Assembly (NCBI RefSeq): GCF_007747215.1
Contig: NZ_CP036273.1
Span: 372,001-436,000 of the forward strand
DNA length: 64,000 nt
Source of the DNA: Urbifossiella limnaea
GTDB taxonomy: Bacteria > Planctomycetota > Planctomycetia > Gemmatales > Gemmataceae
Direction: 5' to 3'
Part shown: positions 3,581 to 49,830 of the stretch, piece by piece
How positions within the stretch are numbered: the first letter of the stretch is position 1
Layout of the letters: each line of letters opens with the position of its first letter
The notes under the pieces: generated by a model
Seen by the model: only the letters and a program-made list of their open reading frames with translations
Told to the model about the DNA's origin: nothing
Database searches by the model: none
Made by a program: the position numbers and the translations under genes

Positions 3581-4230
3581 GGCACCGCCTCCTGCCGGCG
3601 GCGCTCCGGTGGCTCGCGGCGCTGCTCGTGCTGCGCGTGCTGGCCGCGACGCTGGCGAACTACCCCGACTACTTCCCGCCCGACTTCGACGCGCTGTTCC
3701 TCCAGGGCCGCGAGGCGACGTTCGCCGGCGCCTACCGCATCGCCTTCTACGCCCACGTCGTCACCGCCCCGGTCGTGCTCGTGACCGGCCTGCTGCTGAT
3801 GAGCCGGGCCGTACTACGGCGGCGCCGGCTGCACCGGGTGCTGGGCCGCGTCCACGTCGGCGTGCTGCTGGGGGTGGTGCTGCCGAGCGGCGCGGTGATG
3901 GCCCGGCACGCCTTCGGCGGCGCCGCGGCGGGAGTGAGCTTCCTCCTGCTGTCGGTGGTGACCGGAGCGTGTGCGGTGGTCGGCGTCGTCCACGCCCGCG
4001 GCGGCCGGTTCGACCGGCACCGCGCCTGGATGACGCGCTGCTACGTGCTGCTGTGCTCGGCGGTGGCGCTGCGGCTGATGTCCGGGGCGGCGGGGCTGAT
4101 TGGCGTGGCGAGCCCGGAGGCGGCGTATGTTGGGGCGGCGTGGGCCAGCTGGCTGCTGCCGCTGGCCGGGTTCGAGGTGATCGAGCGGTGGCGCCGGGCC
4201 GTGACCGGCTCACGCCCCGGTTCGCCGTAG
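3577..4230 (+). CDS. DUF2306-like membrane protein
   Basis: The 217-residue integral membrane protein has about five to six hydrophobic segments (ALLVLRVLAATLA, VVTAPVVLVTGLLL, VGVLLGVVLPSGAVM, LLLSVVTGACAVVGVV, YVLLCSAVALRL, WLLPLAGFEVI). Between them are a histidine-rich loop (RRRRLHRVLGRVHVG) and RFDRHRAWMTR, typical of the DUF2306 family. The GTG start at 3577 overlaps the stop of the DUF1559 gene (GTGA), implying translational coupling. Its 3' end overlaps the convergent gene by 21 bp. Function unknown. Confidence 0.8.
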   Translation: MRHRLLPAALRWLAALLVLRVLAATLANYPDYFPPDFDALFLQGREATFAGAYRIAFYAHVVTAPVVLVTGLLLMSRAVLRRRRLHRVLGRVHVGVLLGVVLPSGAVMARHAFGGAAAGVSFLLLSVVTGACAVVGVVHARGGRFDRHRAWMTRCYVLLCSAVALRLMSGAAGLIGVASPEAAYVGAAWASWLLPLAGFEVIERWRRAVTGSRPGSP

Positions 4231-19351: not shown

Positions 19352-20539
19352 ATGCTCGCCAAGCTGCGGACGTTCGCCCTCGCCGGGATCGACGCGGTCC
19401 CGGTCGAGGTCGAGGTGGACGCCGCGGCCGGCACCCCCAAGACCGTCCTCGTCGGCCTCCCCGAGCTCGCCGTCCGCGAGAGCGTCCACCGCATCGAACG
19501 GGCGCTCGCCAACCTGGGGTACTTCCGCCCCACCGGCCGCACCATCATCAACCTGGCCCCCGCCGACCTGCGCAAGGACGCCGGCGCGTTCGACCTGCCG
19601 ATCGCGCTCGGCGTCCTCGTCGCCACCGGGCAGGTGAAGCCCGACCAGATCGCCGACCTGGCCGCCGTCGGCGAGCTGGCGCTCGACGGCGCCGTGCGGC
19701 CGGTGAAGGGCGCGCTGTCGGTGGCGATGGCGGCGCGCGACCAGGGGCTGAAGCGGTTGCTGGTCCCCGCCGAGAACGCCCGCGAAGCCGCCGTCGTGGA
19801 AGAACTCCAGGTCTTCGCCGTCACGTCGCTGGCCGAGGCCGTCGGGCTGGTGACTGGGCAGGTGGACGTGGACCCGGTAGCGTACCGGCCCGAGGAGGTG
19901 GCCGGGCACCTGAACCGCTACGACATCGACTTCGCCGAGGTGCGCGGGCAGGAGTCGGCCAAGCGGGCGATGGTGGTGGCCGCGGCCGGCGGGCACAACA
20001 TCCTCATGCTCGGCGCCCCGGGGTCGGGCAAGTCGATGCTCGCCAAGCGGCTGCCGACCATCCTGCCGCCGCTCACCGCCACCGAGAGCCTCGACACCAC
20101 GCGCATCTATTCGGCCGTCGGCCAGCTGCCGCCCGGCGAGGCGCTGCTGGCGACGCGGCCGTACCGCAACCCGCACCACACCATCTCGGACGCCGGCATG
20201 GTCGGCGGCGGGCACGTGCCGCAGCCGGGCGAGATCAGCATGGCGCACCACGGCGTCCTGTTCCTGGACGAGCTGCCGGAGTTCAACCGCAAGAGCCTCG
20301 AAGTGCTGCGGCAGCCCCTCGAAGAAGGCTGCGTCACGATCGCGCGGGCGACCGGCAGCACCACCTTTCCCGCGCGGTTCATCCTGGTGGCGGCGATGAA
20401 CCCGTGCCCGTGCGGCTACCTCGGCGACCCCCGACGCCCGTGCAAGTGCAACCCGATGGTCGTGGAAAAGTACCTCGGCCGCATCAGCGGGCCGCTGCTC
20501 GACCGGAACGGGACGAGTCTTCAGATGCCGATGCCCTGA
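19352..20539 (+). pseudogene. comM: comM/yifB 5' part (Mg-chelatase-like AAA+ ATPase), interrupted by island
   Basis: The first 383 codons are the N-terminal Lon-protease-like domain ([48 protein letters not shown]) and the Mg-chelatase ATPase with Walker [28 protein letters not shown], Walker [12 protein letters not shown], and the cysteine pair region [17 protein letters not shown]. After GPLLD (20503) the frame enters island DNA, adds [11 protein letters not shown] and stops. The missing C-terminal 128 residues lie at 49807-50193. ComM promotes branch migration during natural transformation; the split should inactivate it. Confidence 0.93.
20481..20522. other. attL junction
   Basis: Chromosomal comM sequence lies to the left of the GA at 20501-20502, and element sequence to the right. 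The element half-arm GGACGAGTCT (20511-20520) is complementary at 9 of 10 positions to AGACTGGTCC at attR (49789-49798). The recombinase stop codon (20484-20486) is chromosomal. Confidence 0.85.
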
Positions 20540-22121
20540 GATGGACCACCCCGCCCGACAGCGGATAGCGCGTCAGCTTTGCCTTCTTCACTGCCTCGAA
20601 ACGCAGGTCAATCCGCTCGATGGCCTCGCGCACCACAGTGCGGACGAGTGCCGGGTCGCCGGCCTTCATCACCTCCACCAGCTGCTCGACCTTGCCGACG
20701 ACGTGAGCGACCGACCCCGCCGGTGACTGGCGAGTGGCTCGGTCGAGTTCCTCCTGGGCAGTTGCCCGCTCCTGCTTCCACTGCCGAATCTTCGCCTGCA
20801 TGGTGGGGATGAGGTCGGCGTCCATTAGCAGGAGGTTGTCCGTCGCCTTGGCGATGTTCGCGTCCAGCTTGGCCTGCTTCATCCGCAGCCCCTTCACCGT
20901 TTGCTCGTCTGGCCCAGAGCGCTGCTCGGCCTGCCGCCGAACTTCCGCCTCAAGGCGCTCACGTTCGGCCGGGACGAGCAAGCGCGACTGGAGCACTTGC
21001 GCAATTTGCTCGATGACGACCCGCTCGTTGACGGTCCGCGGGCCGCACCTCCCCTGGGTGAAGTAGCTGCCGCAGCGGTAGATGGCCTGCTTGACTCCCC
21101 CGCTCATCTGCTTGGTGCCGTACATGGGCACGCCACAGTGTGCGCAGCGGAGCAGCTGGGAGAGCGGGTAGCTGGCCTTCTTCCGGCTCGGGGACGTGCG
21201 GGAGCGGTTGGAGGCGAGCTTCTGCTGCACCAGGTCGAAGAGCTCGGGTAGGACCAGAGGCTCATGCTGGCCGGGGATGACAAGCCAGGACTCGGACGAG
21301 GTGCGCTCTGACTTGTTGGCCTTCTTTTGTGTCGGCCGAATCTCCCCGCCGTCCGACCTGAAGAACTTCCCCTGCTTCACCTTCCCCCAAACGTAGGAGC
21401 CCGCGTAGACGTGGTTGGTCAGGATGTTGTGGACGGTGTTCTTACCCCACTGCTGGCGACCGTGCGGGGATGGCACGCCGAACGCGTTCAGCTCGGCGAC
21501 GACCGCCATGAGGCTGAGGTCGCGGTTAGCGTAGCCGTCGAAGATGCGACGGACGACCTCAACCTTCCCAGGTGCGTCCGCGTCGGGCTCAAGGCCGACC
21601 CGATTTCCACCAGCATCGAGCTTGTACCTGTACCCGTAGGCGGCGCGGCCGACGAACAGTTTGCCCTCGCACGCCTTTCGTGCCATGCCGGTGGCCGTCC
21701 GCCGCCCCAAGGTGTGGGACTCGTCCGCCGCCTTGTACTGGCCGAGGAACGCAAGGAGCTGGCCCCCGAGGTCATCACGGTCCCAGGTCAGACGCCGCCC
21801 GGTGTCCACTACCTCGACGAACACCCCGACCTTCCGGAGGGGGTGGACGACGGTCGCCATGTACTCGACCGTGTCGTCCCGGGAGAGCCGAGATTGTTCG
21901 TCCACGACGATGAGGTCGAACTTCCCCTTCTGGGCATCCTGCAATAGCCGCTGGAACTGAGGGCGGGACGAGTCCGAGCCCCGCATCCCCAGGTCTTGGT
22001 AGACCTCGACGACCTCGTACCCCTTCCGCTGACAGTAAGGCAGAACCTGTGAGCGCTGGCGTTCCGGCGACCCGGTCTGGTCGTCGGTGCTCATGCGGAT
22101 GTAGACGGCGGCTCGTGGCAC
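20484..22121 (-). CDS. Large serine recombinase, 3'-truncated by its own integration
   Basis: The 545-residue large serine integrase has a resolvase catalytic domain with YIRMSTDDQ (catalytic Ser near residue 11), [14 protein letters not shown] and the arginine-rich active-site set. A recombinase domain follows ([26 protein letters not shown]), then a zinc ribbon ([13 protein letters not shown] ... [17 protein letters not shown]) and a coiled coil ([14 protein letters not shown] to [13 protein letters not shown]). The GTG start is at 22121. The attP core is inside the gene: after SSRSG the last five residues (RAAAR) and stop are antisense comM. Its natural continuation in the same frame is at 49460-49806. 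Confidence 0.93.
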
Positions 22122-22297
22122 GCGAGGTCTCCGACGGGGGCGAAGTAGGGGGCCAAGTAACTGGGGTGTGCGGCCTGGCTGGGCAACTCGGTCATCAGCA
22201 GGAGGCGGGCCAAGGCGGTAATGGCTGCGTCGGTCAGACGACCCTCGGTGGAAACGACCAACTCACCCCTACCGCGGTGCATGGGGCTCGCTTGCAC
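22091..22297 (-). CDS. Small hypothetical ORF overlapping the recombinase start
   Basis: This 68-codon frame (HRGRGELVVSTEGRLTDAAITALARLLLMTELP ...) overlaps the recombinase start by 31 bases on the same strand. The middle looks like a short amphipathic helix with plausible codon bias; the C-terminus is less convincing. It might be a leader or coupling peptide for the recombinase. No homologue was recognised. Confidence 0.4.
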   Translation of the reverse strand: MQASPMHRGRGELVVSTEGRLTDAAITALARLLLMTELPSQAAHPSYLAPYFAPVGDLACHEPPSTSA

Positions 22298-22440
22298 GGA
22301 GTTCAGCCAGCTCTACGAACAGGGTGCCGTGCTCGGCAGTCAAGTGGTAGCATCTCGCGGCGGCAGCTATCGTCCCGCCGCCAGTGCCCGTGCCATCAGC
22401 CGGCACGAAATCAGCAATCACTAAAGTGCTCTCCAGTAAA

Positions 22441-23145
22441 GAGTTGTGAACATGTACCGAGGGCGACGCCTCAGTCCGCGAACGATGCTGTATGGTCGGG
22501 AGGGAGGCGCATGAGGTGATGGGTGCGCCGCGGTAAGAGGGATTACCGACTTGGAGGCAGCGTTAAGTAATTGTCACGCCAGTAGTTAGTGAGGAACCGG
22601 AGGGATAGAGGACCGAAAACGTGGGAGTGGGATTCAATCCCATTAACCCGATTTTACCATGCCGGGAGGAAAACTGTCAATGGGGTGCCTGCGAAAAGAA
22701 TCGCTTGGTCCAGCAGAGAGGCGATGCACGGGCCGGACCTCACACCCCACAAGCGGGAGTGTCGGGTACAGCCATAGCCCCCCCAGGGGGGCACTGAGCC
22801 GAGGTGTGGCCTGTGCTTGTTGCGCAGCTCGTACGAGGGAGGCGTTTGGCCCTCCAGTGAAAATCTCTGGAATCACTTGACAGGCTGCCGACGACTGCAT
22901 AGTCTATGAATCGACCGGCACGAAAATGTGTTGGGGACTATGAATTCGGAATTGGCAAGCACCGGAAGGTGCGGCCCCGATATTCATGAGGCACCGCAGC
23001 GGTGGTGAACCTCTTGTCTTCCCCCCGGACTGGCGGGGGGCGGGCGTCGGAATCAGCCGATGCGAGTGCGCTCGGCCCGCCGCCTATGGCTCATCCGGGC
23101 CAAATGGTGCCTTAGGGTTCCGTTACCGGTGGGCAGTCTCTCTTC
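22441..23145 (+). ncRNA. Candidate large structured RNA, class unidentified
   Basis: No convincing reading frame covers this stretch. The plus strand forms many clean stems: 22506-22511/22524-22529, 22531-22536/22543-22548, 22628-22633/22637-22642, 22898-22904/22936-22942, 22959-22963/22968-22972 closed by a GGAA (GNRA) tetraloop, and 23021-23026/23035-23040. There is also a perfect three-way junction (23041-23045 with 23075-23079 enclosing 23047-23050/23057-23060 and 23063-23066/23071-23074). A-rich unpaired joints (GGAAAAC, CGAAAAG, GTGAAAATC) all lie on the plus strand. The ends are approximate. Confidence 0.5.
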
Positions 23146-23727
23146 GTCGACATTTACACAATCCACTTTTCTCACACAAACTGATTTACAGCGAGTAATA
23201 TCTCGGCTGTGGTCAACTCTATTAGCTCCGTTCCCAATTGAATGATGGAGCTATCCGTCGGCCCGAATCCACCGACGAGGGGCTGCGACCTTCCAGTAAG
23301 CGAGTAGCACGAGACTTAGCTTCTAGCCCTTCGAGCTGGCACCTCCTGTTCCAGCAGGGAGGGGACAGAGCACCTACTGGAGCTACAGGGGTGTGCCACG
23401 GGTAGAACCATCATCCCCTGAAGAACCCAGGTGGAGGGGGAGAGACAAGGGTCGGCGGCCTGGGATGTTTACTTCCCTGCTAGTGTTCCTCCCCGCCTGC
23501 TGACCTGCCTTAACGCTCGACGTCTCTAGCACGATGCGTCGGCGGATGCAGTAGCCCAGAAGTTCGCCACGACTGGGTCAAGCGCCGCCCAGGTGGCCGC
23601 CCAGGACGAGGGCCTGACGGTGCGAGCGTCCCGCGAGGCGACGAGCCGCCGGTTCCAGGTGGACGTGGAGGTCGAGCAGGAAGGGGTGGGCGCCGTTCGG
23701 GGACGGCTGACCGCACCCCCTTCGGAG
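23146..23727. other. Non-coding or decayed stretch
   Basis: An unusually AT-rich patch (about 23146-23245) is followed by a hairpin CGTCGG...CCGACG (about 23257-23278) and one copy of the island word CCAGCAGGGA at 23351-23360. From about 23530 a plus-strand frame (DAVAQKFATTGSSAAQVAAQDEG) reads like protein but has no start and a stop just upstream; it may be a gene remnant. Confidence 0.5.
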
Positions 23728-24495
23728 TCACTTCGCGGCCGGCGCGTCAGTCCGGATGCCGGCCACCAGGTCGAGGTACTGAGCGAAGGCTTCTGGCCCG
23801 CCACAGGCACGGACCGCTTCCGCCACTTGCCGGGCAGCCTCAACACCGCCGGCGGCGGCCACGGCGGCGTTCACCTGCGCCACGTTCGACAGGACCTGGG
23901 TCAGGCCGGCTGGGGCTGCGGCAACCGGCGTCGGCGCCACCGGGGCAGGAGCCGGCGCCGGTGCGGCCGTCTTCTGCGCGGCGGACGCGACGACCCGGGG
24001 GACCTTCGCCGTGGCCCGCTTCAGCTCGCCCCGGATGTTGTAGACGAGTGCCCGGATGGACGACTCGGCGGCCTTCAGGCCCCGGGCCCTCGCCTTGGCG
24101 ACGACCTGGTCTGCCGACAGCTTCAGGTCGCCCGACAGGATGGACCGCACGACGGACGAGGTGGTCGGGACGGCCGTCTTTCGGGGCGCGACCGGGGCCG
24201 GTTGCGGGCTCAACTTCAGCTTTTGCGCCACCGTCGCCTTCGGGGGTTGCGCCACCTTCTGGGCGGGGGTCGGCGTAGGTGCGGGCTTCGCGGCCGGGGC
24301 GGTCGCCGCCAGCCGGGCGGCCTTCTTCTTAAGCTCCTTGCGGACGTCGTAGGCCGTCCGGCGAATTACCTCGTCCGGGGCCTTCACCCCCTTGGCCTTG
24401 GCCTTGGCGAGGACATCGTCGGTGGTGAGATTCATGTTGGCGGACAGGATTTCGCGGACGACGGTCCAGACGGTGGGGGCTGGCGCGGTGGCCAT
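23728..24495 (-). CDS. Protein with two tandem DNA-binding-like repeats
   Basis: The 255-residue protein has two related ~50-residue helical units: WTVVREILSANMNLTTDDV and onward to TAYDVRKELKKKA (residues about 10-60), and SSVVRSILSGDLKLSADQV and onward to LVYNIRGELKRA (about 115-160). They are joined by Ala/Pro/Lys-rich linkers and followed by a helical tail (VNAAVAAAGGVEAARQVAEAVRACGG). Each unit looks like a small winged-helix or H-NS/Rok-like module. The start is ATG at 24495 behind CCGGAG. Its layout resembles the partial gene at the window's left edge. DNA binding is inferred. Confidence 0.72.
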   Translation of the reverse strand: MATAPAPTVWTVVREILSANMNLTTDDVLAKAKAKGVKAPDEVIRRTAYDVRKELKKKAARLAATAPAAKPAPTPTPAQKVAQPPKATVAQKLKLSPQPAPVAPRKTAVPTTSSVVRSILSGDLKLSADQVVAKARARGLKAAESSIRALVYNIRGELKRATAKVPRVVASAAQKTAAPAPAPAPVAPTPVAAAPAGLTQVLSNVAQVNAAVAAAGGVEAARQVAEAVRACGGPEAFAQYLDLVAGIRTDAPAAK

Positions 24496-24671
24496 GTGCG
24501 TGTAGACTCCGGGGCGAGGAGGTGGCGGGGCGTAGGTGCCGAGCGGCGTATCCGTAAGACCATTGTCCACCCATCCCCGTGCCGCGACAATCCGTCCAGG
24601 TGGTACAGCTTCCGGATTCTCGGGGGCCGGGGCGGTTCGTGCCGGATGCGCCGGTCGGGCAGGAGGTGGGT

Positions 24672-25376: not shown

Positions 25377-25482
25377 TCGGCCGTCGGGTGCCCCAACCCG
25401 GCCAGTCGGGTTGGTATGAATCTTCTAGCCCGCCAGGCGAATAGCCTGTAACGGATTGGGTACGTCTCCCTGGAGTCGCCGC

Positions 25483-27228
25483 ATGGTTGACCCGCTCGAC
25501 GCCCTCGCGTTCTCGATGAGCACGTCCAAGGGAGTCTACGCCCTGCTACTGGGGTCCGGGGTGTCTCGGTCGGCCAGTATCCCGACGGGCTGGGACATCA
25601 TCCTCGACCTGGTCCGCAAGCTGGCCAAGCTCCAAGGGGCCGACCCTGAGCCCGACCCCGAGAAGTGGTTCGTGACGACCTTCGGGGAGGCGCCGAGCTA
25701 CAGCGTCCTTCTCGACAAACTCGGGAAGACCGGCGCCGAACGCCAGGCGGTCCTGAAGGGGTACATTGAGCCGACCGAGGAGGACCGAGAGGCCGGCCGG
25801 AAGGCGCCGACGCGGGCCCACCGCGGCATCGCCGAGTTGGCCGCCGGCGGGCACGTCAAGGTCATCCTGACCACCAACTTTGACCGGCTGATGGAGTCGG
25901 CCCTTGAGGGGGCCGGCGTCACACCGCAGGTCATCGCCTCGCCGGACGCTGTCGCCGGCATGACCCCGCTGCCGCATGGTCCGGTGACCGTCATCAAGCT
26001 GCACGGCGATTACCTGGACGCCCGCATCAAGAACACCATCGAGGAGTTGGAGACGTACGACACCCACACGAACCGCCTACTCGACCGTGTGCTGGACGAG
26101 TACGGCATGGTAGTGAGCGGGTGGTCGGGGGAGTGGGACACGGCCCTGCGTGCGGCCATCGAGCGGTGCCCGAACCGGCGGTACGCGACCTACTGGAATG
26201 CCTTCCGGGAGCCGACTGGGAGGGGAGCGGAACTCGTCAGGCTGCGTGCCGCGCAGGTCGTCCCGAACCTCGACGCCGACACGTTCTTCACCCGGCTGGC
26301 CGAGAAGGTGAAGGCGCTTGAGGACTATTCGCGTCCGCACCCCCTCAGCACAGCAGCGGCCGTGTCCGCTCTCAAGCGGTACATCCCAGAGCCTGTCCAC
26401 CGCATCCGTCTTGCCGAGTTGGTAGCCACGGAGGCAAACAGCGTCACACAATACATGCGAGAGACGCATGTCCCTCCGCAGGACCGTCTGACGTTCCCTG
26501 CGGCAGCGGCTCGGGCGGAGGTTGTCGGCTCACGGTCGGAGACCGTCGTGCACCTTCTGGCAGCGGGTGGCTATTGGGGTGCCCCCGAGCAGGTGGGGTT
26601 GTGGGTCGATGCCATCGAACGGCTCTCCGGGGCCGTGGTGCCGACGCCGGGCTTCTCGTACCCATCGTGGGAAGGTCTGAGACTTCTCCCAGCCTTACTC
26701 GGCTGGTACGCGTGCGGCCTCGGGGCTCTCGCAGCGAAGAAGTACACGGTGCTTCGCGCACTGCTTTACGATGTCAGGCTGGACCTAGCCGGCCGGGAGG
26801 TGCTACCCGTTACCCTGGCCCTCGACCCGTACAAGGTGGTCCACAAGGATGTGGGCGATGCCTACTGGATGCCGGAACGAAAGCACACGCCTGTTAACGA
26901 GTGGCTGCATCGCGTGCTCAAACCCGCCGTGAGACCCTATATGGCGACTGACGGCGCTTACGACCAACTGTTCGACCGGTATGAGTTACTGCGGACCTTG
27001 GTGGAGTCGGAGGGGAGCAAGATTTTTTCGCCTAGCCGGTTTTGGTATCAGCACAACCAGGGCATGCCGAAAAACGCGGTCAACGACCTCTTGGCTGAGG
27101 TCGAGCAGCAGGGGAAGCACTGGGGAGGCTTCCTGGGCGGCCTTTTCTCATCCAAGAGAGAGAACTTTGACAAGGCGTGGAGAGCCGTCATGGAGCAGAT
27201 GCAGAATAGCGGGGTGGGCTACAGATAG
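25483..27228 (+). CDS. SIR2-domain protein, probable antiviral NADase
   Basis: The 581-residue protein has an N-terminal SIR2-like Rossmann domain: LLLGSGVSRSASIPTGWDI (residues 21-39, NAD-binding Gly loop), ILTTNFDRLME (about 128-138, Asn132 as likely catalytic), KLHGDY (about 172-177, His174) and VSGWSGEWDTALR (about 211-223). The C-terminal ~330 residues are helical and unassigned and could be the sensor. Stand-alone SIR2 proteins of this layout act in abortive infection by depleting NAD+ (DSR, Thoeris ThsA and related systems). The start is ATG at 25483. No obvious partner gene adjoins. Confidence 0.82.
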   Translation: MVDPLDALAFSMSTSKGVYALLLGSGVSRSASIPTGWDIILDLVRKLAKLQGADPEPDPEKWFVTTFGEAPSYSVLLDKLGKTGAERQAVLKGYIEPTEEDREAGRKAPTRAHRGIAELAAGGHVKVILTTNFDRLMESALEGAGVTPQVIASPDAVAGMTPLPHGPVTVIKLHGDYLDARIKNTIEELETYDTHTNRLLDRVLDEYGMVVSGWSGEWDTALRAAIERCPNRRYATYWNAFREPTGRGAELVRLRAAQVVPNLDADTFFTRLAEKVKALEDYSRPHPLSTAAAVSALKRYIPEPVHRIRLAELVATEANSVTQYMRETHVPPQDRLTFPAAAARAEVVGSRSETVVHLLAAGGYWGAPEQVGLWVDAIERLSGAVVPTPGFSYPSWEGLRLLPALLGWYACGLGALAAKKYTVLRALLYDVRLDLAGREVLPVTLALDPYKVVHKDVGDAYWMPERKHTPVNEWLHRVLKPAVRPYMATDGAYDQLFDRYELLRTLVESEGSKIFSPSRFWYQHNQGMPKNAVNDLLAEVEQQGKHWGGFLGGLFSSKRENFDKAWRAVMEQMQNSGVGYR

Positions 27229-36912: not shown

Positions 36913-38112
36913 ATGGTGGACCTGAACGACCCACTGCGCCGGGCGATGGAGCTGGAGGGGCTGCATAAGAAGATGTTCAACCCCGCGCTCGCCTTGGAGG
37001 GCGGCATCCTCGCCCAGCTACGCGCCCAACCGAGCCTCATGGCGATGGTTGGGTCCCAGCTCGCCCTTCAGAAGGCCATCTTCCCTGACTTGAAGACGCT
37101 GCTGGTCCCGCTCCCGGGCGTGTCGCTCAGCGCGACCAGCACCATCGCCTCGATGCTTGATTCTGTGCGAGTTAACGCTACGGTTCGAGCATTACTTAGC
37201 GACGAAACCCAGAGGATGAGCTCCGCGTTCGACGCCGCGAGGCTCAGCGCCCTCGCTGATTGGAAGGCCATTTTCAGAGGCATCTCCGCGGTGGAGGCTG
37301 GCTTCGCCCTGCCGCTCCAGGCGCACTTGTCGGTGCTGTTCGAGCGCTCTGCTCTCGCGGACGGGGCCTTCTCACGGGTGAAGGAGGGCTCGCTCGGCTC
37401 CAGGCTGGGCCTTGCCGAACACGACCGTGCGGGGCTCACAGAGTCTCAGGGCGAGTTACAGGCGGGCTTTCGCTCCTACTTCGATGAGGTTGCCGCTTCT
37501 GACCTCGGGGTTCTGGAGCTTCCCGCCCAGCTCACCGAGCTCCCCGCCGCCGAGCTCGTGAACCAGGCCGCCCTGGTGGTCTCGACCTCCGAGACGGAGG
37601 AGGATGCTGAGGCTGTCCTGGTCGAACGGGCGGTGGCGGACGAACTGGCGGCGGAGACCACCGACTTGCTCACCGGTCTGGTGGCCGAACTAGACCCCGA
37701 ACTCGTGCAACTCCTGAAGGGCGCGCGGGAAGCGTTCGCGTCCCGCCACACCGACTACATTCGCCACTTCGTGACTTCCTACCGCGAGCTGTTCACCCAT
37801 CTTCTTCACGCGCTTGCGCCGGACGACGAGTTGAAAAAATGGACGAAGGACCCGAAGCACTACGACAGGAACAAGCCGACGCGGCGGGCGCGAGTGCAGT
37901 TCCTCACCCGCGACCTCAAGGACTCGTTCGGCGGGTTCTTGAACGCCGATGTCGACGCGGTCTTAGAGTTCATCGGGGTGTTTCAGAAGGGCACGCACGG
38001 CGTCAATCCGCAGTTCTCGGATGAGCAACTGCGGGACATGAAGAACCGGACCGAGGGGCTGTTCCGCTTCATGCTCGTCACGCACCGTGTCGCGGTGACG
38101 GGCAGGCTTTAA
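36913..38112 (+). CDS. Uncharacterised protein, possible pPIWI-associating-nuclease-like C-terminus
   Basis: The 399-residue protein has a helical N-terminal half without known motifs (QLRAQPSLMAMVGSQLALQKAIFPDLK). Its C-terminal ~150 residues read REAFASRHTDYIRHFVTSYRELFTHLLHALAPDDELKKW, then TRRARVQFLTRDLKDSFGGFLNADVDAVLEFIGVFQKGTHGVNPQFSDEQLRDMKNRTEGLFRFML. This resembles the predicted pPIWI-associating nuclease/AbiJ-related domains often found in defence loci. No catalytic set can be assigned with confidence. Codon use is less GC-biased than in the chromosome. The start is ATG at 36913. Confidence 0.5.
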   Translation: MVDLNDPLRRAMELEGLHKKMFNPALALEGGILAQLRAQPSLMAMVGSQLALQKAIFPDLKTLLVPLPGVSLSATSTIASMLDSVRVNATVRALLSDETQRMSSAFDAARLSALADWKAIFRGISAVEAGFALPLQAHLSVLFERSALADGAFSRVKEGSLGSRLGLAEHDRAGLTESQGELQAGFRSYFDEVAASDLGVLELPAQLTELPAAELVNQAALVVSTSETEEDAEAVLVERAVADELAAETTDLLTGLVAELDPELVQLLKGAREAFASRHTDYIRHFVTSYRELFTHLLHALAPDDELKKWTKDPKHYDRNKPTRRARVQFLTRDLKDSFGGFLNADVDAVLEFIGVFQKGTHGVNPQFSDEQLRDMKNRTEGLFRFMLVTHRVAVTGRL

Positions 38113-38210
38113 ACGGCAGGCCGCCCCGAGCCGTCTCGGCCGCGTCGCCGCCGCCGAGACTCGCACGGCTGGTCGTGCAGGTGATTGCCTGTCCTGCGGA
38201 AGGCGCTTCG

Positions 38211-38651
38211 TCAGTACGACTCGTGCGCGAGCTGCCAGCCGGCGTCGCCCTTCACCCAGACTCGGGTGTAGCCCACGTCGTTGAAGATGTGGGCGGACGG
38301 GCCGCCCCGCTGCCCTATGGTGACCGTCAACGAACCGGTCTCGACCGCGGTCGCCCCGTACAGCCTGACCCTCGCGGTCGTGAACGACAGGCCCGCGTGC
38401 TTCTGCCCCAGGCCGGTCCACAGGGCGACGGCCTCGGCGCGCGTCAGCTCGCGCTTGCCCTCGACTTCCCCGACCGGCACCCGGGCCCCGTGGTAATCCG
38501 GGCGGAGCAGGCGTTCCAGCCCGGCCCGGTCTTTGTCCTTGGCGGCCTTGGCGTAGAGCGCGGCCAGGTCGCGAACGTCCTTCCCGTCGTCGGCCCTGGC
38601 GGCGCCGGCAACCACCACGACGGCCACGGCGGCAAGCACGCAGGTCCGCAT
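38211..38651 (-). CDS. Secreted NTF2/SnoaL-like (DUF4440-type) protein
   Basis: The 146-residue protein has a cleavable signal peptide (RTCVLAAVAVVVVAGAARA) and an NTF2-like domain (DVRDLAALYAKAAKDKDRAGLERLLRPDYHG, LTRAEAVALWTGLG, RVRLYGATAVETGSLTV, GYTRVWVKGDAGWQLAHESY). Such proteins are cone-shaped binding or enzymatic scaffolds of unknown specificity. The ATG at 38651 with GAGGAG upstream is clear. It is an ordinary planctomycete exported protein and a passenger in the island. Confidence 0.78.
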   Translation of the reverse strand: MRTCVLAAVAVVVVAGAARADDGKDVRDLAALYAKAAKDKDRAGLERLLRPDYHGARVPVGEVEGKRELTRAEAVALWTGLGQKHAGLSFTTARVRLYGATAVETGSLTVTIGQRGGPSAHIFNDVGYTRVWVKGDAGWQLAHESY

Positions 38652-38788
38652 CTCGCACTCCTCGCCTCGGTGACGGCCCGGATGGTAACCATCCTCACAA
38701 CCCGAGGACAAGCCCGGCATCACCCTCGCCGCGTCGCCGCTGGACTCGTCGCGGCGGCGGTTCGGCGGGGACCTCGCCTGCGTCGTGT

Positions 38789-39325
38789 TCAGCACGACCG
38801 CAACCGTGCCACGATGCGCTCAAACTGCTCCTGAGTTAGCTCAAAGAGAGCGAAGATACGCTCGTTGATGGGCACTTCGTTCACCACGTTTACCACGACA
38901 CCATCCGGCTCGTAGTTCTGCCATGCGTCCACGTCAATCCGCACCGGGTAACTCGTCCCCTCCGGCGCTCGCCACGGACTCGTGTGATTCTCGTAGGCGA
39001 TGGCGTCGTCGAAGTACACAACTCCGCTCTCGTAGGCTTGGTACTGAGTGACGTAATCCTTGATTTTGTCAAGGACGCCAGGAGTGGTTGCCCGAAGCCT
39101 GGGGGCGATTACCTCGCCGTACGCGAAGAACGTGTTCGTCGGAAGATAGGCCACCAGCATGTGCCCTTCTCGGACCTCCCGGAGCCGCGAATAGTTCACA
39201 GCAATCCGGTTTCGCCTATTGCCAGTATCCCCTTCCGCGTACTGGTAGTGCATGAGCCAGAACATCCCGGCTATACCATGCCGGAGGCAATCTTCTTGCC
39301 CGAAGTTGGCGCACCAGTACTTCAT
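38789..39325 (-). CDS. PUA/EVE-like domain protein
   Basis: The 178-residue protein begins KYWCANFGQEDCLRHGI. It contains VREGHMLVAYLPTNTFFAYGEVIAPRL, then YPVRIDVDAWQNYEPDG and a C-terminal helix (FELTQEQFERIVARLRS). The order (aromatic YW start, "G-D/H-x-x-x-x-Y" strand, a "G-x-V" strand with Pro, and a "V-D-V" strand) is that of EVE/PUA-like folds which read modified bases. It is the last gene of a four-gene minus-strand cassette, 15 bases after the Nmad2-like gene. The assignment is structural intuition, not alignment. Confidence 0.5.
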   Translation of the reverse strand: MKYWCANFGQEDCLRHGIAGMFWLMHYQYAEGDTGNRRNRIAVNYSRLREVREGHMLVAYLPTNTFFAYGEVIAPRLRATTPGVLDKIKDYVTQYQAYESGVVYFDDAIAYENHTSPWRAPEGTSYPVRIDVDAWQNYEPDGVVVNVVNEVPINERIFALFELTQEQFERIVARLRSC

Positions 39326-39340
39326 GCTTGGACCTCGGTC

Positions 39341-40165
39341 TCAATGGACTGCAATCAGCCGCTGTAACAACACGTCCACGCTCTCCCAGCCCTGGTTCCT
39401 CGCGTGGTGCTCCAGGAACAGCGCCGGCGTCTGCCACAGGAAGGTGAACGCCGGGTCGGCGACGAGGTACGCAGCGTGTCGGCCGAACTGCGCGTTGCTG
39501 AACTCGATGTCCTTCTTCCAGTCGTCGGTCGCGGCCGTCCTGCGGTGGCTGTGTCCGACCATCGGCGGGTAGTAGGACGTGGACTTGCACGGGTTCGAGA
39601 AGGACGAAGTGAGCCTCGGCTCAAACATATCCCCTAGCCGATGCTGTCGAGTGGACTTCGCCCCCTGGAGAGCGGGAAGGGCAGTCCACATGCCGGCCGC
39701 CGTTGGGTAGCCTGCGCCGACCTGAGCCAGGTAGAACAACCAGGTCCGGTCGCACAGCCGGGGGCTGGTGAAACCGGCCAGCCAGCAGCCCTCCCAGTCG
39801 GCGGCGTGCTTCTCCGTGCGGATTTGGTGGGCGCAGGTGCAGAGCGTCAGGCAGCCGCCCTGGAAATTGGGTCCCGACCCGTAGTGCTCAAGACGCCCCT
39901 GGTCGTCCACGTAGACCGAAATCATCTTGTAGGACCGGACCTTCCCCGGCCGCCCCCCGATGCGGCTTTGCAACTCGGGCATGCGGAGGTCCATGTTGTC
40001 GAACAACACGCCTTCGGTCGGAAACGGCTGGACGGGCTCGGCGTCGTCAGGGCCGCACGCCCGGCGCTCCCCACAGACGACAGGTTCGGGCATCTTGGCC
40101 GGGGGGCAGCCCCGCTTGAATGGCTTAACCTTGACTGCCGTTCCGCCCATCAGGTGCCCCTTCAT
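39341..40165 (-). CDS. Nucleotide-modification-associated (Nmad2-like) protein
   Basis: The 274-residue protein has the core YKMISVYVDDQGRLEH, GSGPNFQGGCLTLCTCAHQIRTEK, GCWLAGFTSPRLCDRTWLFYLAQVGAG. This parallels the Nmad2-type pattern "G-x-A-P-N-x-x-x-G-x-L-T-L-A-x-C-x-x-x-I-R ... G-D-W-x-x-G ... Y-x-M-x-V". Two CXC/CXXC pairs occur near it (TLCTCAH). Nmad domains cluster with phage DNA-modification genes. The later part is SYYPPMVGHSHRRTAA, then ATDDWKKDIEFSNAQFGRHAAYLVADPAF. The start is ATG at 40165. It is third in the cassette. Confidence 0.55.
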   Translation of the reverse strand: MKGHLMGGTAVKVKPFKRGCPPAKMPEPVVCGERRACGPDDAEPVQPFPTEGVLFDNMDLRMPELQSRIGGRPGKVRSYKMISVYVDDQGRLEHYGSGPNFQGGCLTLCTCAHQIRTEKHAADWEGCWLAGFTSPRLCDRTWLFYLAQVGAGYPTAAGMWTALPALQGAKSTRQHRLGDMFEPRLTSSFSNPCKSTSYYPPMVGHSHRRTAATDDWKKDIEFSNAQFGRHAAYLVADPAFTFLWQTPALFLEHHARNQGWESVDVLLQRLIAVH

Positions 40166-40318
40166 GTGGGTGTTCCGACGATTGCTCTCCAAATTGAATC
40201 GTACCACACTCGCCCTCTTGCACAAAGCACTCGCCCACCCCGCCGAAGTGGAGGCGCTGCGGGGCTATGGGTCGGCGTGGCCGGGTTGCGGGCGCCGCAT
40301 CTATCGCAGGGGGGGCAA

Positions 40319-41152
40319 TCAGTTCTTGCAGAGCCCCATCTCCTTGGTCCGCAACTTCGCTTTCCAGAGGGCCTCCATCTTCAGCACATCGTCTGGCGTC
40401 GCGGCCGTCCCTGCCACCTCAAGGATGGCCACCTGGTAGTCGCTCGGGTCACGGCTTTTCAGGCCCACGTTGCCGCCGTGACCATTTTGGACGTAGTCCT
40501 GCCACCGGCCCCAGAACCCGTCTGCGCCGGACGCCGACCCGACGTACTGCTCCTGCGTCTTGGGGCACGTCAGCACGTAGACCCCCTTCACCGCACGGAG
40601 GGCCGCCACCCACCCGGTGTGGAGGCTGTCCAGCCCGGATAGGGGCCGGATGAAGTTCAGGTAACCGGGGAACGCGGGCTCGGTGAACGCCGCCCGGAGT
40701 TCGAGGACCACCTTGTCCTGGGTGTCCGCCCGCTGAATCCAGCTCAGGTAGCCGCCTCCCCAGGCTACGACAAGCCGGCCTGCGAGGTCCTTCAGGTGGT
40801 CGGTCAGAGTGAGGTCGTACCAGTGGCACGACCCGGCCTGGTCCACACCGTCCTTGTGGGGCATCGGCAGGTCCTGGTCCAGCACCTTCTTCCCAGCAAC
40901 ACTGTAGAGGCCGGCGAACAGGGTCTCGTCGGTCGGGGAGACGACGAACGCCGCCCAGTACGCCCCGGTCAGCCGCGGTTCGTTGTCGAGTGACTGGCTC
41001 GACTGGTAGCTGTGGAACTTTTCGGGGTGGTCCCGCCACAGCTCGTAGGGCGAACGCCCCTTGGCCGCGCTGCGGTCCTTGTGCCGGAGCAGTCGGACCT
41101 CGGCCAGGGACAGGCCCTCCTGCTTGAGGAGGGTGTTGAACATCAACGGCAT
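40319..41152 (-). CDS. GIY-YIG nuclease family protein
   Basis: The 277-residue protein's C-terminal domain shows the GIY-YIG order: GVYVLTCPKTQEQYVGSASGADGFWGRWQDYVQNGHGGNVGL, with the paired Tyr strands (VYVL / QYVGSA), the Arg helix (FWGRWQDY), DYQVAILEVAG, and the catalytic Glu helix (DDVLKMEALWKAKL). The N-terminal ~170 residues form a separate domain (LTGAYWAAFVVSPTDETLFAGLYSVAGKK, WYDLTLTDHLKDLAGRLVVAWGGGYLSWIQ) that looks EVE/PUA-like and may recognise DNA. The start is ATG at 41152. This is a plausible restriction effector. Confidence 0.72.
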   Translation of the reverse strand: MPLMFNTLLKQEGLSLAEVRLLRHKDRSAAKGRSPYELWRDHPEKFHSYQSSQSLDNEPRLTGAYWAAFVVSPTDETLFAGLYSVAGKKVLDQDLPMPHKDGVDQAGSCHWYDLTLTDHLKDLAGRLVVAWGGGYLSWIQRADTQDKVVLELRAAFTEPAFPGYLNFIRPLSGLDSLHTGWVAALRAVKGVYVLTCPKTQEQYVGSASGADGFWGRWQDYVQNGHGGNVGLKSRDPSDYQVAILEVAGTAATPDDVLKMEALWKAKLRTKEMGLCKN

Positions 41153-41207
41153 CCGAGAAGCCCTCGGGGCCAACGCGACAGGGTCTGCACGCCGTGTCGC
41201 CAGGTTA

Positions 41208-42338
41208 CTACGCTTCCAGCTCGTCGGCCGGGTCGTAGAACTCGGCGACGTCTTCCAAGAACTCCGGCTTTACGTGCTTGACCATGTCCTTGAGCAGGTC
41301 GAGCCGGGCGCACAGCTTCGAGTACGGCAGGAACCCGCAGATGCGGTGGAGCGGGGTCTTCCGGTACGCGAACGTCGGCCGCGGAATCTCCTTCTTGAAC
41401 TTCGTGTATCGCTCGTCCGGCCCGACCAGGTACAGCCGAATGTTGATGTTCGGCTGCATCGTGATGAGGTCCGACATCCGCAGCAGCCCCGAGTAGACGG
41501 CCGTCGTGTGCTCCACCTCGAACGCCGCCACGATGGCGTTCTCCTCGCTGAACCAGATGACGTCGATGTTCTCGACGATGCTGTTGGTCACGTCGTCGAA
41601 GTTCGTCGGGAGCGACCCCAGCAATCGAGGTACCGACCCGACCGCCGCCCCGTTCCATGTTTTTCCACGGTCGGACTTCGGCGCCCAGACCTTCAAGCCC
41701 ATCTGGGACCCAAGGTCGAGAAGCCGGTACTGAATCTCGGTGTGGGTCGGGCCGCCGGTCTGGAGCGGCGCGTCCGGCTCGGCATCGACCTCGGCGACCG
41801 GGACGCCGACGACCGCGTCGATTTCCTCGCCGCCCTGGCGGAGCTTGGTCTTGTACAGATTCGCGGACCGCAACAGCTTCTTTTTGTCGACCGGCCGGGA
41901 CACCGGCTTGGCCTTCGTGTCCTGGAGGACCTGGAGGATGCCGTCGCCGTCCGCGGGCTTGTACCGGGTGGGCGAGCTGCGGAGGAACCCCGACCACTGC
42001 TTGGCTGTCCCCCCGGCCGGGAAGAACGAGAGCTTCCCCTCGAACTGCTCCATCGGCACCCCGTGCTCGGGCGGCAGCATGACGAGCGGTTCGACGTCGA
42101 ACCGGACCGGGAACGACTCTTCCTTCCAAATCTTCTCGTCGCTCTTGTACCGCTTGCTGGTCGCCTTGAGGGCCCCGACCCACCGCTTCACCCCGACCAG
42201 GTAGCACAGGAAGACGTCGCCCGGCTCGATGGCCTGGGCGCGGGCCCACTGGTGCTCCCGGAACCCGGTCACCTTCGCCCCCGCCTTCCGGAACTCCTCC
42301 CAGGTCGTGCCGGTGAACAGGTCGAGCCAGTAGGTCAT
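41208..42338 (-). CDS. EVE-domain fused PD-(D/E)XK endonuclease
   Basis: The 376-residue protein has an N-terminal EVE domain: TYWLDLFTGTTWEEFRKAG, HQWARAQAIEPGDVFLCYLVGVKRWVGALKATS, then FPVRFDVEPLV. The C-terminal nuclease-like domain shows THTEIQYRLLDLGSQMGLKVW (Glu201), NSIVENIDVIWF (Asp259), AAFEVEHTTAVYSGLLRMSDL (Glu274-x-Glu276) and INIRLYLVGPDERY. This is the pattern of modification-dependent (type IV-like) restriction enzymes in which EVE recognises a modified base. The start is ATG at 42338; it is first gene of the cassette. Confidence 0.72.
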   Translation of the reverse strand: MTYWLDLFTGTTWEEFRKAGAKVTGFREHQWARAQAIEPGDVFLCYLVGVKRWVGALKATSKRYKSDEKIWKEESFPVRFDVEPLVMLPPEHGVPMEQFEGKLSFFPAGGTAKQWSGFLRSSPTRYKPADGDGILQVLQDTKAKPVSRPVDKKKLLRSANLYKTKLRQGGEEIDAVVGVPVAEVDAEPDAPLQTGGPTHTEIQYRLLDLGSQMGLKVWAPKSDRGKTWNGAAVGSVPRLLGSLPTNFDDVTNSIVENIDVIWFSEENAIVAAFEVEHTTAVYSGLLRMSDLITMQPNINIRLYLVGPDERYTKFKKEIPRPTFAYRKTPLHRICGFLPYSKLCARLDLLKDMVKHVKPEFLEDVAEFYDPADELEA

Positions 42339-42564
42339 GGGCGAGCCGCCGCGGCGTGAAGCAGAGGGTGTGTCAGAAGCGTATCAGGTGCGACGCGACC
42401 GACCGAGCAAAAAGTCGCCTGCTTGTTGAGGTACATAGCGACCGCCGATGGCGGACTCTCCACTGCCGCTGTCCTGCGCGATGTCCAAGAATCTGGAACG
42501 GGTCGGTGGGCTTGCCGGTGTAAATCCTGATAGACCGGAAGCCCACCCGCACCCCTACCGACCC

Positions 42565-43095
42565 ATGCCCACCGAACTCCGCCGCATCCCCTCTCTGCCC
42601 GAGCCCGCGCACTACGCCGACGACGAAGGCCACATCTGGGCCGAGCGAGACGGCGTCGTCCAGCTGTTGAAGGAGCGGGTCCTAAAGAACGGTTACCTGG
42701 CGGTGTCCGTACGAGTCTGCGTGAAGGACTCGATTCGGAACGTCCACGTCCTCGTGGCCGAGGCATTTCTGGGCCCGCGCCCGCCTGGCCAGGTCGTCCG
42801 GCACGTTGACGGCGACAAGCTCGTCAACCGGCCTTCTTCATTGGAGTACGGGACTCACCAGGCGAACGCCGCCGACGCCCGGCGCCACGGAACCGCCCGC
42901 TACGGCGAGAATCATCCGAACGCGAAACTGACCGCTGAAAATGTTGTCGGGGTGCGGTTCGCGCTTCAGATGGGCGTGGCGCGTAAGGCCATCGCGCAGG
43001 AGCTCGGGGTGAGCCTCTCGGCCATCCATGACATCGCGCAAAAGCGGCGGTGGCGCGCCGAGCCGACGGCGGCGGTCGCGGCGGTGGCCCCGTGA
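42565..43095 (+). CDS. HNH homing-type endonuclease with C-terminal HTH
   Basis: The 176-residue protein has an N-terminal NUMOD4-like strand segment (HYADDEGHIWAERDG), an HNH_3-type core (NVHVLVAEAFLGPRPPGQVVRHVDGDKLVNRPSSLEYGTHQANAADARRHG; His-Val-Asp-Gly, Asn and His metal residues) and a helix-turn-helix tail (LTAENVVGVRFALQMGVARKAIAQELGVSLSAIHDI). These are the typical parts of free-standing phage homing endonucleases. The ATG at 42565 is chosen; a longer frame from 42448 is possible. It interrupts two minus-strand defence units. Confidence 0.82.
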   Translation: MPTELRRIPSLPEPAHYADDEGHIWAERDGVVQLLKERVLKNGYLAVSVRVCVKDSIRNVHVLVAEAFLGPRPPGQVVRHVDGDKLVNRPSSLEYGTHQANAADARRHGTARYGENHPNAKLTAENVVGVRFALQMGVARKAIAQELGVSLSAIHDIAQKRRWRAEPTAAVAAVAP

Positions 43096-43196
43096 CCTAC
43101 TTCCTCTGGTTCGACGGTGGCGCCGTCCCCGCCGGGGTCAGCCGCTCCGCCCACCTTACGTGTCGGTCAGCGGCCGTAGGGCGAGGAGCAGAAGAG

Positions 43197-46100
43197 CTAC
43201 GGGGCAGAAGTACTCGCCATCGGTTGGCGCTGCCTTCCCCCCCGCTGAGCTGCGCTCACGTATCTGCCCTCCGAAATCTCGATGGCCTGCCCGAGGGAGG
43301 CAAGCGTCTCAAGCAACTCGGCCACCTTGTCGACGCGAGCCCTCAGGAAGGTCTTCGCAAGCCGCTCCGCCGTTATGGGACCGGATTGGGCCGTGAGCGC
43401 GACGCGGACCGCCTGAGCCTGAGCCGCTAGTGCTTTCGGCCACGGGGTGCGGGCCGCGACCGTCTTCGCAGTGGAGACCGTCTCTTCCTCTTCCGTTAGG
43501 GGGAGCGGCGATTGAGTACCCGCGTCCCCTGCGGGCTTCTGGAAATCGGGCCGGAGCCATCGGACTTCATCCCGGTTTTCTTCGGAGACACGAACGGCGT
43601 TAAGTGCGACTACCCGTTCAAGAATCTGCTGCTCGCCGAGCGATGTCGGCCAGTCGTAGGCCTCAAAAACGGCCCGGTCGAGCTCGTCGTGCAAGTCCTT
43701 CAGGAGGGAAACTAGGCCCTTGTCGTGCGTGCCTTTCTCGTCCGTGCTCAGTGCCTCTCCGGCTCGCAGCTTTGCAAACACGTTGTAGGCATCCGTGAGC
43801 GTGAGACTCGCGTGCATCGCCTGCTGCCGCTTGCGGTGAGCGTCGAGCCGTTCGGCCACGTTACGAATCTTCGCCTTCTGCTCGTCCGAGCAGACAGGGA
43901 ACGGAAATCGTGAGAAGCAGGGCCCGTTTTGGTACCGCGGGTCATTGCCGAACCCCATCCGACCACCAGCAGCCAGGGCCCACGTTACGTGAATCCGACT
44001 GGATAGAACACCCAACACGAAGGCATCCTCGTGAGCTATCGCGACGATGGAGCCGTCGGCCAGCGTGCCAGGGAGGGGAACAAAAACGAAGACGCGGTGT
44101 TTGGCAACCTCGGTCGTGGCGATGAAGCGAGTCAGCCCCTGACACGCGCGGCGGAGCTTCGGGGCGTTCTCTCCGAACAGCCACCAGTTCCGCTTCCGCG
44201 ATTCGCGGCGGTTCTGGTCGCGAGCCGGCTTGACCCGGTCGTAGAGGAGTTGAAGAGCTTCCGGAAACTGTTCGCGGGCCTGCTCCTGGCTGAGGCCGAA
44301 GAAGTCGATGGCGTACACCTCCCGGGGTTGCTTGACGATGTGATTCCCGACGACGTAGCGGGGGAGGAACCGCGAGAGTTCAGCCCGACCGACCAGAAGT
44401 CCCTGCCGTTCGCTCGGCTGGACGAAGAACCCCCCGCCGTCGAGTTTGCGGTCGCCCACGAGCTTGCAGCCCTGGAGGCCCAGATTCTCGTTACTCCGCA
44501 ACGGCTTTGCGGCGCGGACGTCCACCCCGACCGTCAGGTCCGAATTGATTCGCCCCTTGCAGTAGCCGAGGGTAACGGTGTCCGATTCGTTTTCGACCAC
44601 GCCGAGAACCCCGGGCAGTGCCCCGCGCAAACCGACGGTCATTCCGATGCGGACGGCAGCGCCGTCGCTGGCGTCGGTCCACGGGTGGTCGGCGATGGCA
44701 AACGCAAGAGAGAAGTTCTCCTCGTCGGCAAGGTGGGTCTGCACGACCTGGCCGTTGAAGGTCTGGGTGATGCTGTTCGTGGTGATGAGCCCGAAGCGGC
44801 GGGCCTTACCCTCACGAACCAGCTTCGCCGCTTTGTGCCACCAGTACATCACGTAGTCGGCCGTTCTCGGCATGTCGGGGTATGCCTTCCAGAGCGCGTC
44901 GACGTAGCCGTCCCCGAGGGCGAGCCGAACGTCACGGACCCCGATGAACGGCGGATTTCCGATAACGAAGTCGGCCGCCGGCCAAACGGCCTCTTTCGGG
45001 TCCTCGTACCGAGAGCATGGCTCGCGCGCGGTGTCGTCCGGCACTTGCTCCCCGGTGACGGGGTGGGTCTTCATCGTCTTCCCGTCCCATCGAGTGACGG
45101 GGTTGCCGCTGTCGTCGCGCAGGACGTCCTTCCGCTCGAAGCTCAGGACCCCGTCGCGGCACTCGATGTTCCGGAATGCCTTGATGACCGGCTCGGCGGG
45201 TTGGGTATTACCGAACGTCCGGAAGTGCCATTGCAGGTATCCAATCCAGAGGACTAGTTCCGCGATAGCGGCCGCCCGGGGATTGACCTCGATTCCGAGC
45301 AACTGGTGCGGGTCGACGGTGAAGCCGACGGCCTCGAACGAGAGAACTCCGCCGAGGCTCGAAAGCATGTCCCGGGCTTCGCCCTCGATGCGTTTCAGGT
45401 GCTCAAGGGTCACGTACAGGAAGTTCCCGCTTCCGCATGCGGGGTCCAGAACGGTCACCTTCTGAAGGCGGTTAATGAATTCCTGGACCTCGCCCCGAGC
45501 GTCATCGAGTTTACCGGCCTTGGCGCGCGTGACGGCCGCCGCCTTCGCCGCCTCCCACTCCTCTCGCAGCGGCTCGACGATTGTCGGGATGACGAGGCGC
45601 TCGACGTATTCACGTGGCGTATAGTGCGCTCCCAGCTTGTGTCGCTCGCCCGGGTCAAGCGCTCGCTCAAGCAACGTGCCGAAGATGGCCGGCTCGACTT
45701 CGCGCCAATCCGAGCTTGCCGCGGTGATGAGCAGTTCGAGCTGTGCGTCGGTGAGGGGGAGCGCCTCGGCGTTGTGGAAGAGCTGGCCGTTGAACCGGAG
45801 GAGCTTTTTCTCCAGAATCGGCGAAAAGTCACCCCGGTCCATCGCCTCCCACAGCGAGCGGGTCATGGCCGGGAACGAGTCGACCTTTCCCCGCCGACTC
45901 TTCAGGAAGGTTTTGAAGCTCTCCTTCGGGAGCAAGCCCACATCTTCCGCGAACATCGTGAAGAGACATCGCATCAGGAAGCTGGCAACGAGCTCCGGCG
46001 GATGCTTGGAACGTTCGAGCGATTTTGCAAGCTCTGCGAGCTGGACCGCTACTTCTCGGGTTACTTTCGCGCTGTACCGGCTTGGGTCGAGTGACAGCGG

Positions 46101-46745
46101 GTCGGTCCAAAGCTTCTTGAGCCTCTCCTTGATTTCGGACTTGGTCAGGTTACGGAGCGGAATCCGGTGGGAACGCGAGTCCGGGAACGCCACGTAAGTC
46201 TTGCCCGTGCGGGCGAAGTCTGCGTAGAGCTCAATGCTGTGTCCGACGTCGACGACGACAAGAAAGGGAGGCCATCCGTCCGAGGCCGGGAGCGCCTTGG
46301 CGTACAACTCTGCCTGCCCCTTGGCTGCGAGCATGGCATCATCCCAGCCGTGCGTTCCCCGCACGGCAGTTCCCTTCCGCCCCTTTTTTGGGGGGCTGGT
46401 GGCGTCAGCCTTCGCTGCCTCGGCCTTGTCACTTCCCTGTTTCGCTTCGAGAACGAAGCAGTCTCGCTTGTACAGGTCGATGAACTTTGTGGTCGTGTTG
46501 CCCAGCCCGTCGTCGAAGAGAACGGGATGCTCGAACACGTAACTGTTCTGGGTACTGTCCGCTTGGGCAGGTTCGGGGCGGGTTACTTCGAGGAGGTCGC
46601 ACAACTCGCTCAAGAACAGGGCGTAGTTCGCTCGCTCGGCCGCACCCGATTTCTCCCACCGGGAGATGAACGAATCGGCTGTGAGCGTTTGGGCGGCCAT
46701 CGCGTCACTCGACGGGTTGCTTGCACAGTCGTGCGATTCGGTCAT
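43197..46745 (-). CDS. MmeI-like (type IIL) fused restriction-modification enzyme
   Basis: The 1182-residue single-chain enzyme has an N-terminal nuclease with FIDLYKRDCFVLEAKQ, i.e. Asp90-X9-Glu100-x-Lys102, the same spacing as in MmeI. It also has a helical spacer, an N6-adenine methyltransferase with motif I DPACGSGNF (about 434-442), GIEVNPRAA, and motif IV GNPPFIG (about 596-602). A target-recognition and C-terminal helical region follows (FFVQPSERQGLLVGRAELSRFLPRYVVG, NRRESRKRNWWLFGENAPKLR). It should methylate one strand of its site and cut about 20 bases away. The start is ATG 46745; ATG 46700 is an alternative. Confidence 0.9.
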   Translation of the reverse strand: MTESHDCASNPSSDAMAAQTLTADSFISRWEKSGAAERANYALFLSELCDLLEVTRPEPAQADSTQNSYVFEHPVLFDDGLGNTTTKFIDLYKRDCFVLEAKQGSDKAEAAKADATSPPKKGRKGTAVRGTHGWDDAMLAAKGQAELYAKALPASDGWPPFLVVVDVGHSIELYADFARTGKTYVAFPDSRSHRIPLRNLTKSEIKERLKKLWTDPLSLDPSRYSAKVTREVAVQLAELAKSLERSKHPPELVASFLMRCLFTMFAEDVGLLPKESFKTFLKSRRGKVDSFPAMTRSLWEAMDRGDFSPILEKKLLRFNGQLFHNAEALPLTDAQLELLITAASSDWREVEPAIFGTLLERALDPGERHKLGAHYTPREYVERLVIPTIVEPLREEWEAAKAAAVTRAKAGKLDDARGEVQEFINRLQKVTVLDPACGSGNFLYVTLEHLKRIEGEARDMLSSLGGVLSFEAVGFTVDPHQLLGIEVNPRAAAIAELVLWIGYLQWHFRTFGNTQPAEPVIKAFRNIECRDGVLSFERKDVLRDDSGNPVTRWDGKTMKTHPVTGEQVPDDTAREPCSRYEDPKEAVWPAADFVIGNPPFIGVRDVRLALGDGYVDALWKAYPDMPRTADYVMYWWHKAAKLVREGKARRFGLITTNSITQTFNGQVVQTHLADEENFSLAFAIADHPWTDASDGAAVRIGMTVGLRGALPGVLGVVENESDTVTLGYCKGRINSDLTVGVDVRAAKPLRSNENLGLQGCKLVGDRKLDGGGFFVQPSERQGLLVGRAELSRFLPRYVVGNHIVKQPREVYAIDFFGLSQEQAREQFPEALQLLYDRVKPARDQNRRESRKRNWWLFGENAPKLRRACQGLTRFIATTEVAKHRVFVFVPLPGTLADGSIVAIAHEDAFVLGVLSSRIHVTWALAAGGRMGFGNDPRYQNGPCFSRFPFPVCSDEQKAKIRNVAERLDAHRKRQQAMHASLTLTDAYNVFAKLRAGEALSTDEKGTHDKGLVSLLKDLHDELDRAVFEAYDWPTSLGEQQILERVVALNAVRVSEENRDEVRWLRPDFQKPAGDAGTQSPLPLTEEEETVSTAKTVAARTPWPKALAAQAQAVRVALTAQSGPITAERLAKTFLRARVDKVAELLETLASLGQAIEISEGRYVSAAQRGGRQRQPMASTSAP

Positions 46746-49806: not shown

Positions 49807-49830
49807 GACCGCATCGACCTGCACGTCGAG
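49785..49830. other. attR junction
   Basis: Element sequence (half-arm AGACTGGTCC at 49789-49798) meets comM at the GA of 49807-49808. The chromosomal half (49809-49822) pairs at 9 of 14 positions with the attL chromosomal half (20487-20500) about the same GA, as expected of an attB dyad. Confidence 0.85.

Follow-up and report, generated by a model that had tools for sequence, protein, structure and literature searches.

Introduction

ROOL and GOLLD are RNAs of large size and ornate structure that occur in phages and prophages (PMC12286853), and a non-coding RNA is required for the replication of some extrachromosomal (cluster A) mycobacteriophage prophages (PMC7157519). Here we compare to these systems a locus in a window of 64,000 nucleotides (64 kb, the whole stretch analysed) of the Urbifossiella limnaea genome, for which a preliminary description had suggested a large structured RNA of about 700 bases at 22441-23145. 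Like ROOL and GOLLD, the candidate RNA is large, non-coding, placed on a mobile element and of unassigned function, and it is predicted here to be highly structured. In contrast, it measures 362-490 nt where they measure about 600-800, it is without an Rfam match, a family of homologues or a nearby tRNA array, and its host element is without phage genes among those scanned. The known large phage RNAs are similar to the candidate in kind only.

A second comparison is to the RNA origins of cluster A mycobacteriophages and to RNA I/RNA II of ColE1, with which the locus shares a structured non-coding region, a predicted opposing promoter, an adjacent AT-rich stretch and a position on a mobile element. 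Here, however, par genes were not found, and it is a serine recombinase that integrates the element.

Based on predicted folds and composition, we propose, at close to an even chance, that the locus encodes a stand-alone untranslated RNA on the plus strand, about 360-490 nt long (22655 to 23016-23145), in the control region of the element. Summed over the different readings, a real plus-strand structured RNA, at slightly better than even odds, is favoured over coincidental structure in control DNA. Such an RNA would be transcribed, and its fold would be under selection. If real, it would represent a large structured RNA carried by a mobile defence island, in a phylum for which RNAs of this kind have hardly been mapped, and the simple layout of recombinase promoter, RNA and AT-rich site makes a role in control or maintenance testable. 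At present, the candidate is a single orphan sequence.

Host element and cargo

The host genome (7.8 Mb, a single contig) clusters with 95 genomes that belong to one family. In the window, a comM/Mg-chelatase-like gene is split into an N-terminal part (19352-20539) and a C-terminal part (49783-50193), which carry the ChlI N- and C-terminal domains, respectively. Both flanks align to the intact comM of genus relatives with a short overlap, i.e. a 5-bp GACCG core present at 20501-20505 and 49807-49811, which therefore delimits an integrated element of 29.3 kb at 20506-49811. Since the element ends at 20501-20505, the candidate RNA lies about 2 kb inside it, in agreement with the island's left end to which it had been assigned. 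In the genus relatives the comM-like gene runs unbroken across the junction, and this includes G001, where a related element is found elsewhere in the genome.

The left end of the element is occupied by a large serine recombinase on the minus strand (20484-22121; Pfam Resolvase, Recombinase and Zn_ribbon_recom; phrog_95 integrase). Upstream of the recombinase, and overlapping it, a small minus-strand ORF (22091-22297, 68 aa as called) is conserved in a related element, L002, and a second one, L040, contains similar DNA; as a guess, it is possibly a recombination directionality factor or a regulator. The defence cargo, at 25456-27228 and 36913-46745, includes a SIR2 protein (PDC-S65), a type IIG restriction-methyltransferase, a restriction enzyme-like protein, a predicted pPIWI-associated nuclease, and HNH and GIY-YIG-like proteins, and phage structural proteins were not detected among the element proteins scanned. 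The element as a whole is a defence island, with a serine recombinase as the agent of its mobility.

Coding status of the region

From the start of the small ORF at 22297 to the convergent gene at 23728, an intergenic stretch of 1.43 kb separates the leftward recombinase operon from the cargo, and it is in this gap that the candidate RNA is positioned. The longest open frame in 22441-23145 amounts to 86 codons, with a longer one in 92% of shuffles. The period-3 signal of the region lies at 0.9-1.5, as compared to 9-25 for nearby genes, and none of the 10 ORFs from the intergenic stretch matches Pfam at E<=1. The region is non-coding, and the earlier statement that it holds no credible frame is borne out. 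A conserved protein in any of the six frames, which the preliminary description had named as an outcome that would speak against an RNA, did not appear.

A decayed protein gene is a reading to which we give next to no probability. In its favour is a covariance-model match to a cysW gene (L059), in which 60 of 121 ungapped positions are common with 22835-22955. However, tblastn with the corresponding CysW protein is insignificant (E 0.48), the match arose from a scan of about 300 genomes, and both the period-3 signal and Pfam matches are absent, so that a decayed gene is refuted as far as testable.

Fold of the plus strand

Compared to shuffles, the full region (22441-23145, 705 nt) folds with z=-3.9 on the plus strand and z=-2.3 on the minus strand. 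Dissection with 100 shuffles per segment places the plus-strand excess in a core of 362 nt at 22655-23016 (MFE -164.7, z=-4.8), for which none of 100 dinucleotide shuffles is equally stable, whereas the minus strand of the same segment is weaker (z=-1.5). Stability beyond shuffles on one strand is what is generally expected of a structured non-coding RNA, and a reading as DNA structure only is disfavoured because the fold is asymmetric between the strands. The purine-rich 5' part of the region first described (22441-22650) does not, in contrast, exceed the stability of shuffles on the plus strand (z=+0.5; minus strand, z=-1.1). Structure beyond chance on the plus strand holds for the region and its core, and the boundaries first described, which span some 700 bases, are incorrect. 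Thermodynamics and composition together support a plus-strand structured RNA, of a smaller size of about 360-490 nt, and the earlier interpretation is upheld in part.

In the predicted fold of the plus strand, the core forms 124 pairs and is closed by long helices joining 22666-22690 to 22989-23013. These enclose, in order, a branched hairpin with a near-perfect 16-bp stem and two internal arms (22726-22816; stem pair probability 1.00), a second long helix with apical hairpins (22819-22892; P 0.95), and two further hairpins (22915-22986; P 0.85-1.00), the second of which (22941-22986) is capped by a GGAA tetraloop at 22959-22972. Folded on their own, the segments around these parts reach z=-4.5 (22720-22820), z=-2.7 (22817-22895) and z=-4.6 (22905-22990). 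The GNRA hairpin singled out earlier is thus present as GCACC-GGAA-GGTGC with a pair probability of 1.00, and the three-way junction at 23041-23079 is found in the MFE structure exactly as written, with moderately certain arms (P about 0.6 for one arm). This junction belongs to a probable 3' extension at 23017-23145 (plus strand; z=-2.2, 3/100 shuffles), from which 23103-23112 pairs as the 3' partner of a long-range helix with 22555-22564, and the core probably extends in the 3' direction to ~23112-23145. As for composition, A accounts for 45% of the unpaired bases of the plus-strand core, and the minus-strand fold has C/T-rich loops, which agrees with the A-rich unpaired joints described for the plus strand only.

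Across the 64 kb, the core shows the largest excess stability among 82 windows of 362 nt, a ranking that flatters it because its limits were set post hoc on the basis of the fold; a coding window among the 82 likewise reaches z=-4.5. Control segments of 705-755 nt give z +0.7 to +1.0, with one at -2.0, and local fold scans of 20-30 kb yield consistently negative values mainly at the candidate RNA region. The coding window in question, at 61501-61862, folds with unusual stability on both strands (z -4.5 minus, -3.5 plus).

With a smaller but still considerable probability, there is no RNA gene, and the region is ordinary intergenic control DNA, composed of the recombinase promoter and a 345-nt leader along with old insertions and degenerate sequence, whose stable fold results incidentally from GC-rich inverted repeats and from the choice of the best window. 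The coding window at z=-4.5 counts in favour of such an origin. The clear strand asymmetry, a number of sub-hairpins that independently reach z about -4.5, the A-rich unpaired joints on one strand and the range of the control segments (z +1.0 to -2.0) nevertheless argue against this reading.

Relatives and known RNA classes

Scanned against the 4227 families of Rfam, the whole window gave no match at the gathering score, and in 22100-23600 permissive filters (E<=10) returned only one short chance snoRNA match. This covers GOLLD, ROOL, OLE and HEARO at both settings, and neither group II intron models (RF00029 domain V/VI and the D1-D4 models) nor the group I model (RF00028) matched at E<=10, in line with the earlier failure to assign the RNA to a known class or to find a convincing group II domain V. 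That the RNA belongs, as a divergent and so far unrecognised member, to one of the known classes of large RNAs or ribozymes (GOLLD, ROOL, OLE, HEARO, group I/II intron, RNase P or tmRNA) is accordingly disfavoured, and we regard it as very unlikely: size and mobile-element setting do resemble those of GOLLD and ROOL (PMC12286853), but in addition to the Rfam result, the island ORFs scanned contain no protein recognised as a reverse transcriptase, as IscB/TnpB or as an intron protein. Elsewhere in the window, at 4122-4218, ARAGORN calls a tRNA-Gly(gcc) of 97 nt, which is unusually long and may be a false call or carry an insert.

Searches by blastn of the own genome, 98 relatives, 95 genomes of the family, 398 of the class and 392 of the phylum (Planctomycetota) returned only chance matches. 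No homologue was detected in plasmids and phages, five exact-pattern scans of viral contigs gave isolated loci with chance similarity only, and a comparable RNA of Gemmata did not turn up in the literature. From two single-sequence covariance models, run over sets of 298, 41, 35 and 28 genomes, no match survives inspection; the reach of such models is limited, so that this failure does not prove relatives to be absent in nature. Across the searches, the rejected matches include L004, which falls inside a called ORF, L059, which lies within the cysW gene with its pairs broken, L237, which is partial, lacks most of the second long helix and overlaps an ORF end, and L050 and others, with single short matches and no collinear second piece.

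The related elements are informative with regard to the placement of the RNA. In L002 the recombinase is 76% identical, and DNA similarity ends at the same terminal position. Both L002 and L040 have kept the small ORF along with the recombinase, yet they are without the candidate RNA, the 755-nt gap of L040 being unstructured (z=+1.0), and no counterpart was found in the regions upstream of recombinase relatives. The candidate RNA therefore falls outside the conserved recombinase module and is cargo or a replaceable control module. This absence, together with the lack of homologues anywhere searched, is also what would be expected of ordinary control DNA.

Flanking elements and proposed function

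A sigma70-type promoter, TTGACA-N18-TAAAAT with TG before the -10 element, is located on the minus strand at 22680-22651 and is oriented towards the recombinase and the small ORF that precedes it. The promoter has 0 mismatches to the search pattern and agrees with the consensus at 11/12 positions, in a window of 70% GC whose 64 kb would be expected to contain 0.17 matches even if up to 2 mismatches are allowed. A perfect minus-strand promoter inside the region, in conjunction with the lack of a recognised plus-strand promoter or terminator for the candidate RNA, again conforms to control DNA without an RNA gene. The promoter leaves a predicted leader of 345 nt before the small ORF and the recombinase, as in long structured leaders of integrase operons. 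However, the strong fold lies on the opposite strand and mostly upstream of the promoter, and the leader itself is weakly structured (z=-1.8).

The promoter overlaps the 5' boundary of the plus-strand core, and directly 3' of the candidate RNA follows an AT-rich stretch at 23150-23249, the lowest-GC 100 bp of the window (GC 0.40 vs 0.70). In weighing the plus-strand RNA, we counted in its favour the asymmetry in z, the top rank among 82 windows, the lack of a coding signal, the A-rich loops on the plus strand only, the 1.43-kb gap, the minus promoter at the edge and the AT minimum at the 3' end. Counted against it were the lack of a homologue, the lack of a plus promoter or terminator, the post hoc core, the coding window at z=-4.5 and the absence of the RNA from related elements.

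As the core overlaps the recombinase promoter, a coupling to recombinase expression or element maintenance is suggested. Transcription of the RNA would be coupled to the overlapping opposite promoter, and the RNA would control recombinase expression or the maintenance of the excised element, either in cis or as an antisense regulator, a mechanism that we consider rather unlikely in this specific form. More generally, the candidate is best read as an orphan structured non-coding RNA in the control region, perhaps acting in the regulation or maintenance of the element. That it stands for an undescribed class of large structured RNAs of Planctomycetota serine-recombinase defence islands, with transcription overlapping the recombinase promoter, and forms with the AT-rich site an RNA-based regulation or replication module, appears improbable.

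Similarly low is the probability that the locus is an RNA-based module for replication or copy control of the element in its excised, circular form. Here, the plus RNA would be a structured primer or activator, like RNA II of ColE1 or the RNA origins of cluster A mycobacteriophages, the AT-rich stretch an unwinding or priming site, and the opposing promoter the source of an antisense RNA. An RNA-based origin would fit the order of the parts, i.e. an opposing promoter at the 5' edge, a 362-nt structured RNA and the lowest-GC 100 bp immediately 3' of it. The perfect minus sigma70 match at 22680-22651 could be such an opposing promoter, as expected of ColE1-like and phage RNA origins, or it may simply serve the recombinase. 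There is a precedent in the non-coding RNA needed for prophage replication (PMC7157519), and no replication initiator was recognised among the island ORFs scanned. However, the window holds no DnaA box, neither iterons nor partition genes were found, and the related elements are without the candidate RNA. Integrative elements with a serine recombinase can, moreover, do without replication.

On the far side of the gap, the convergent gene at 23728-24570 (minus strand) encodes a protein with two similar domains and no Pfam family. It is multi-copy in Gemmataceae genomes, with 13 matches in G001, and several copies carry in-frame stops.
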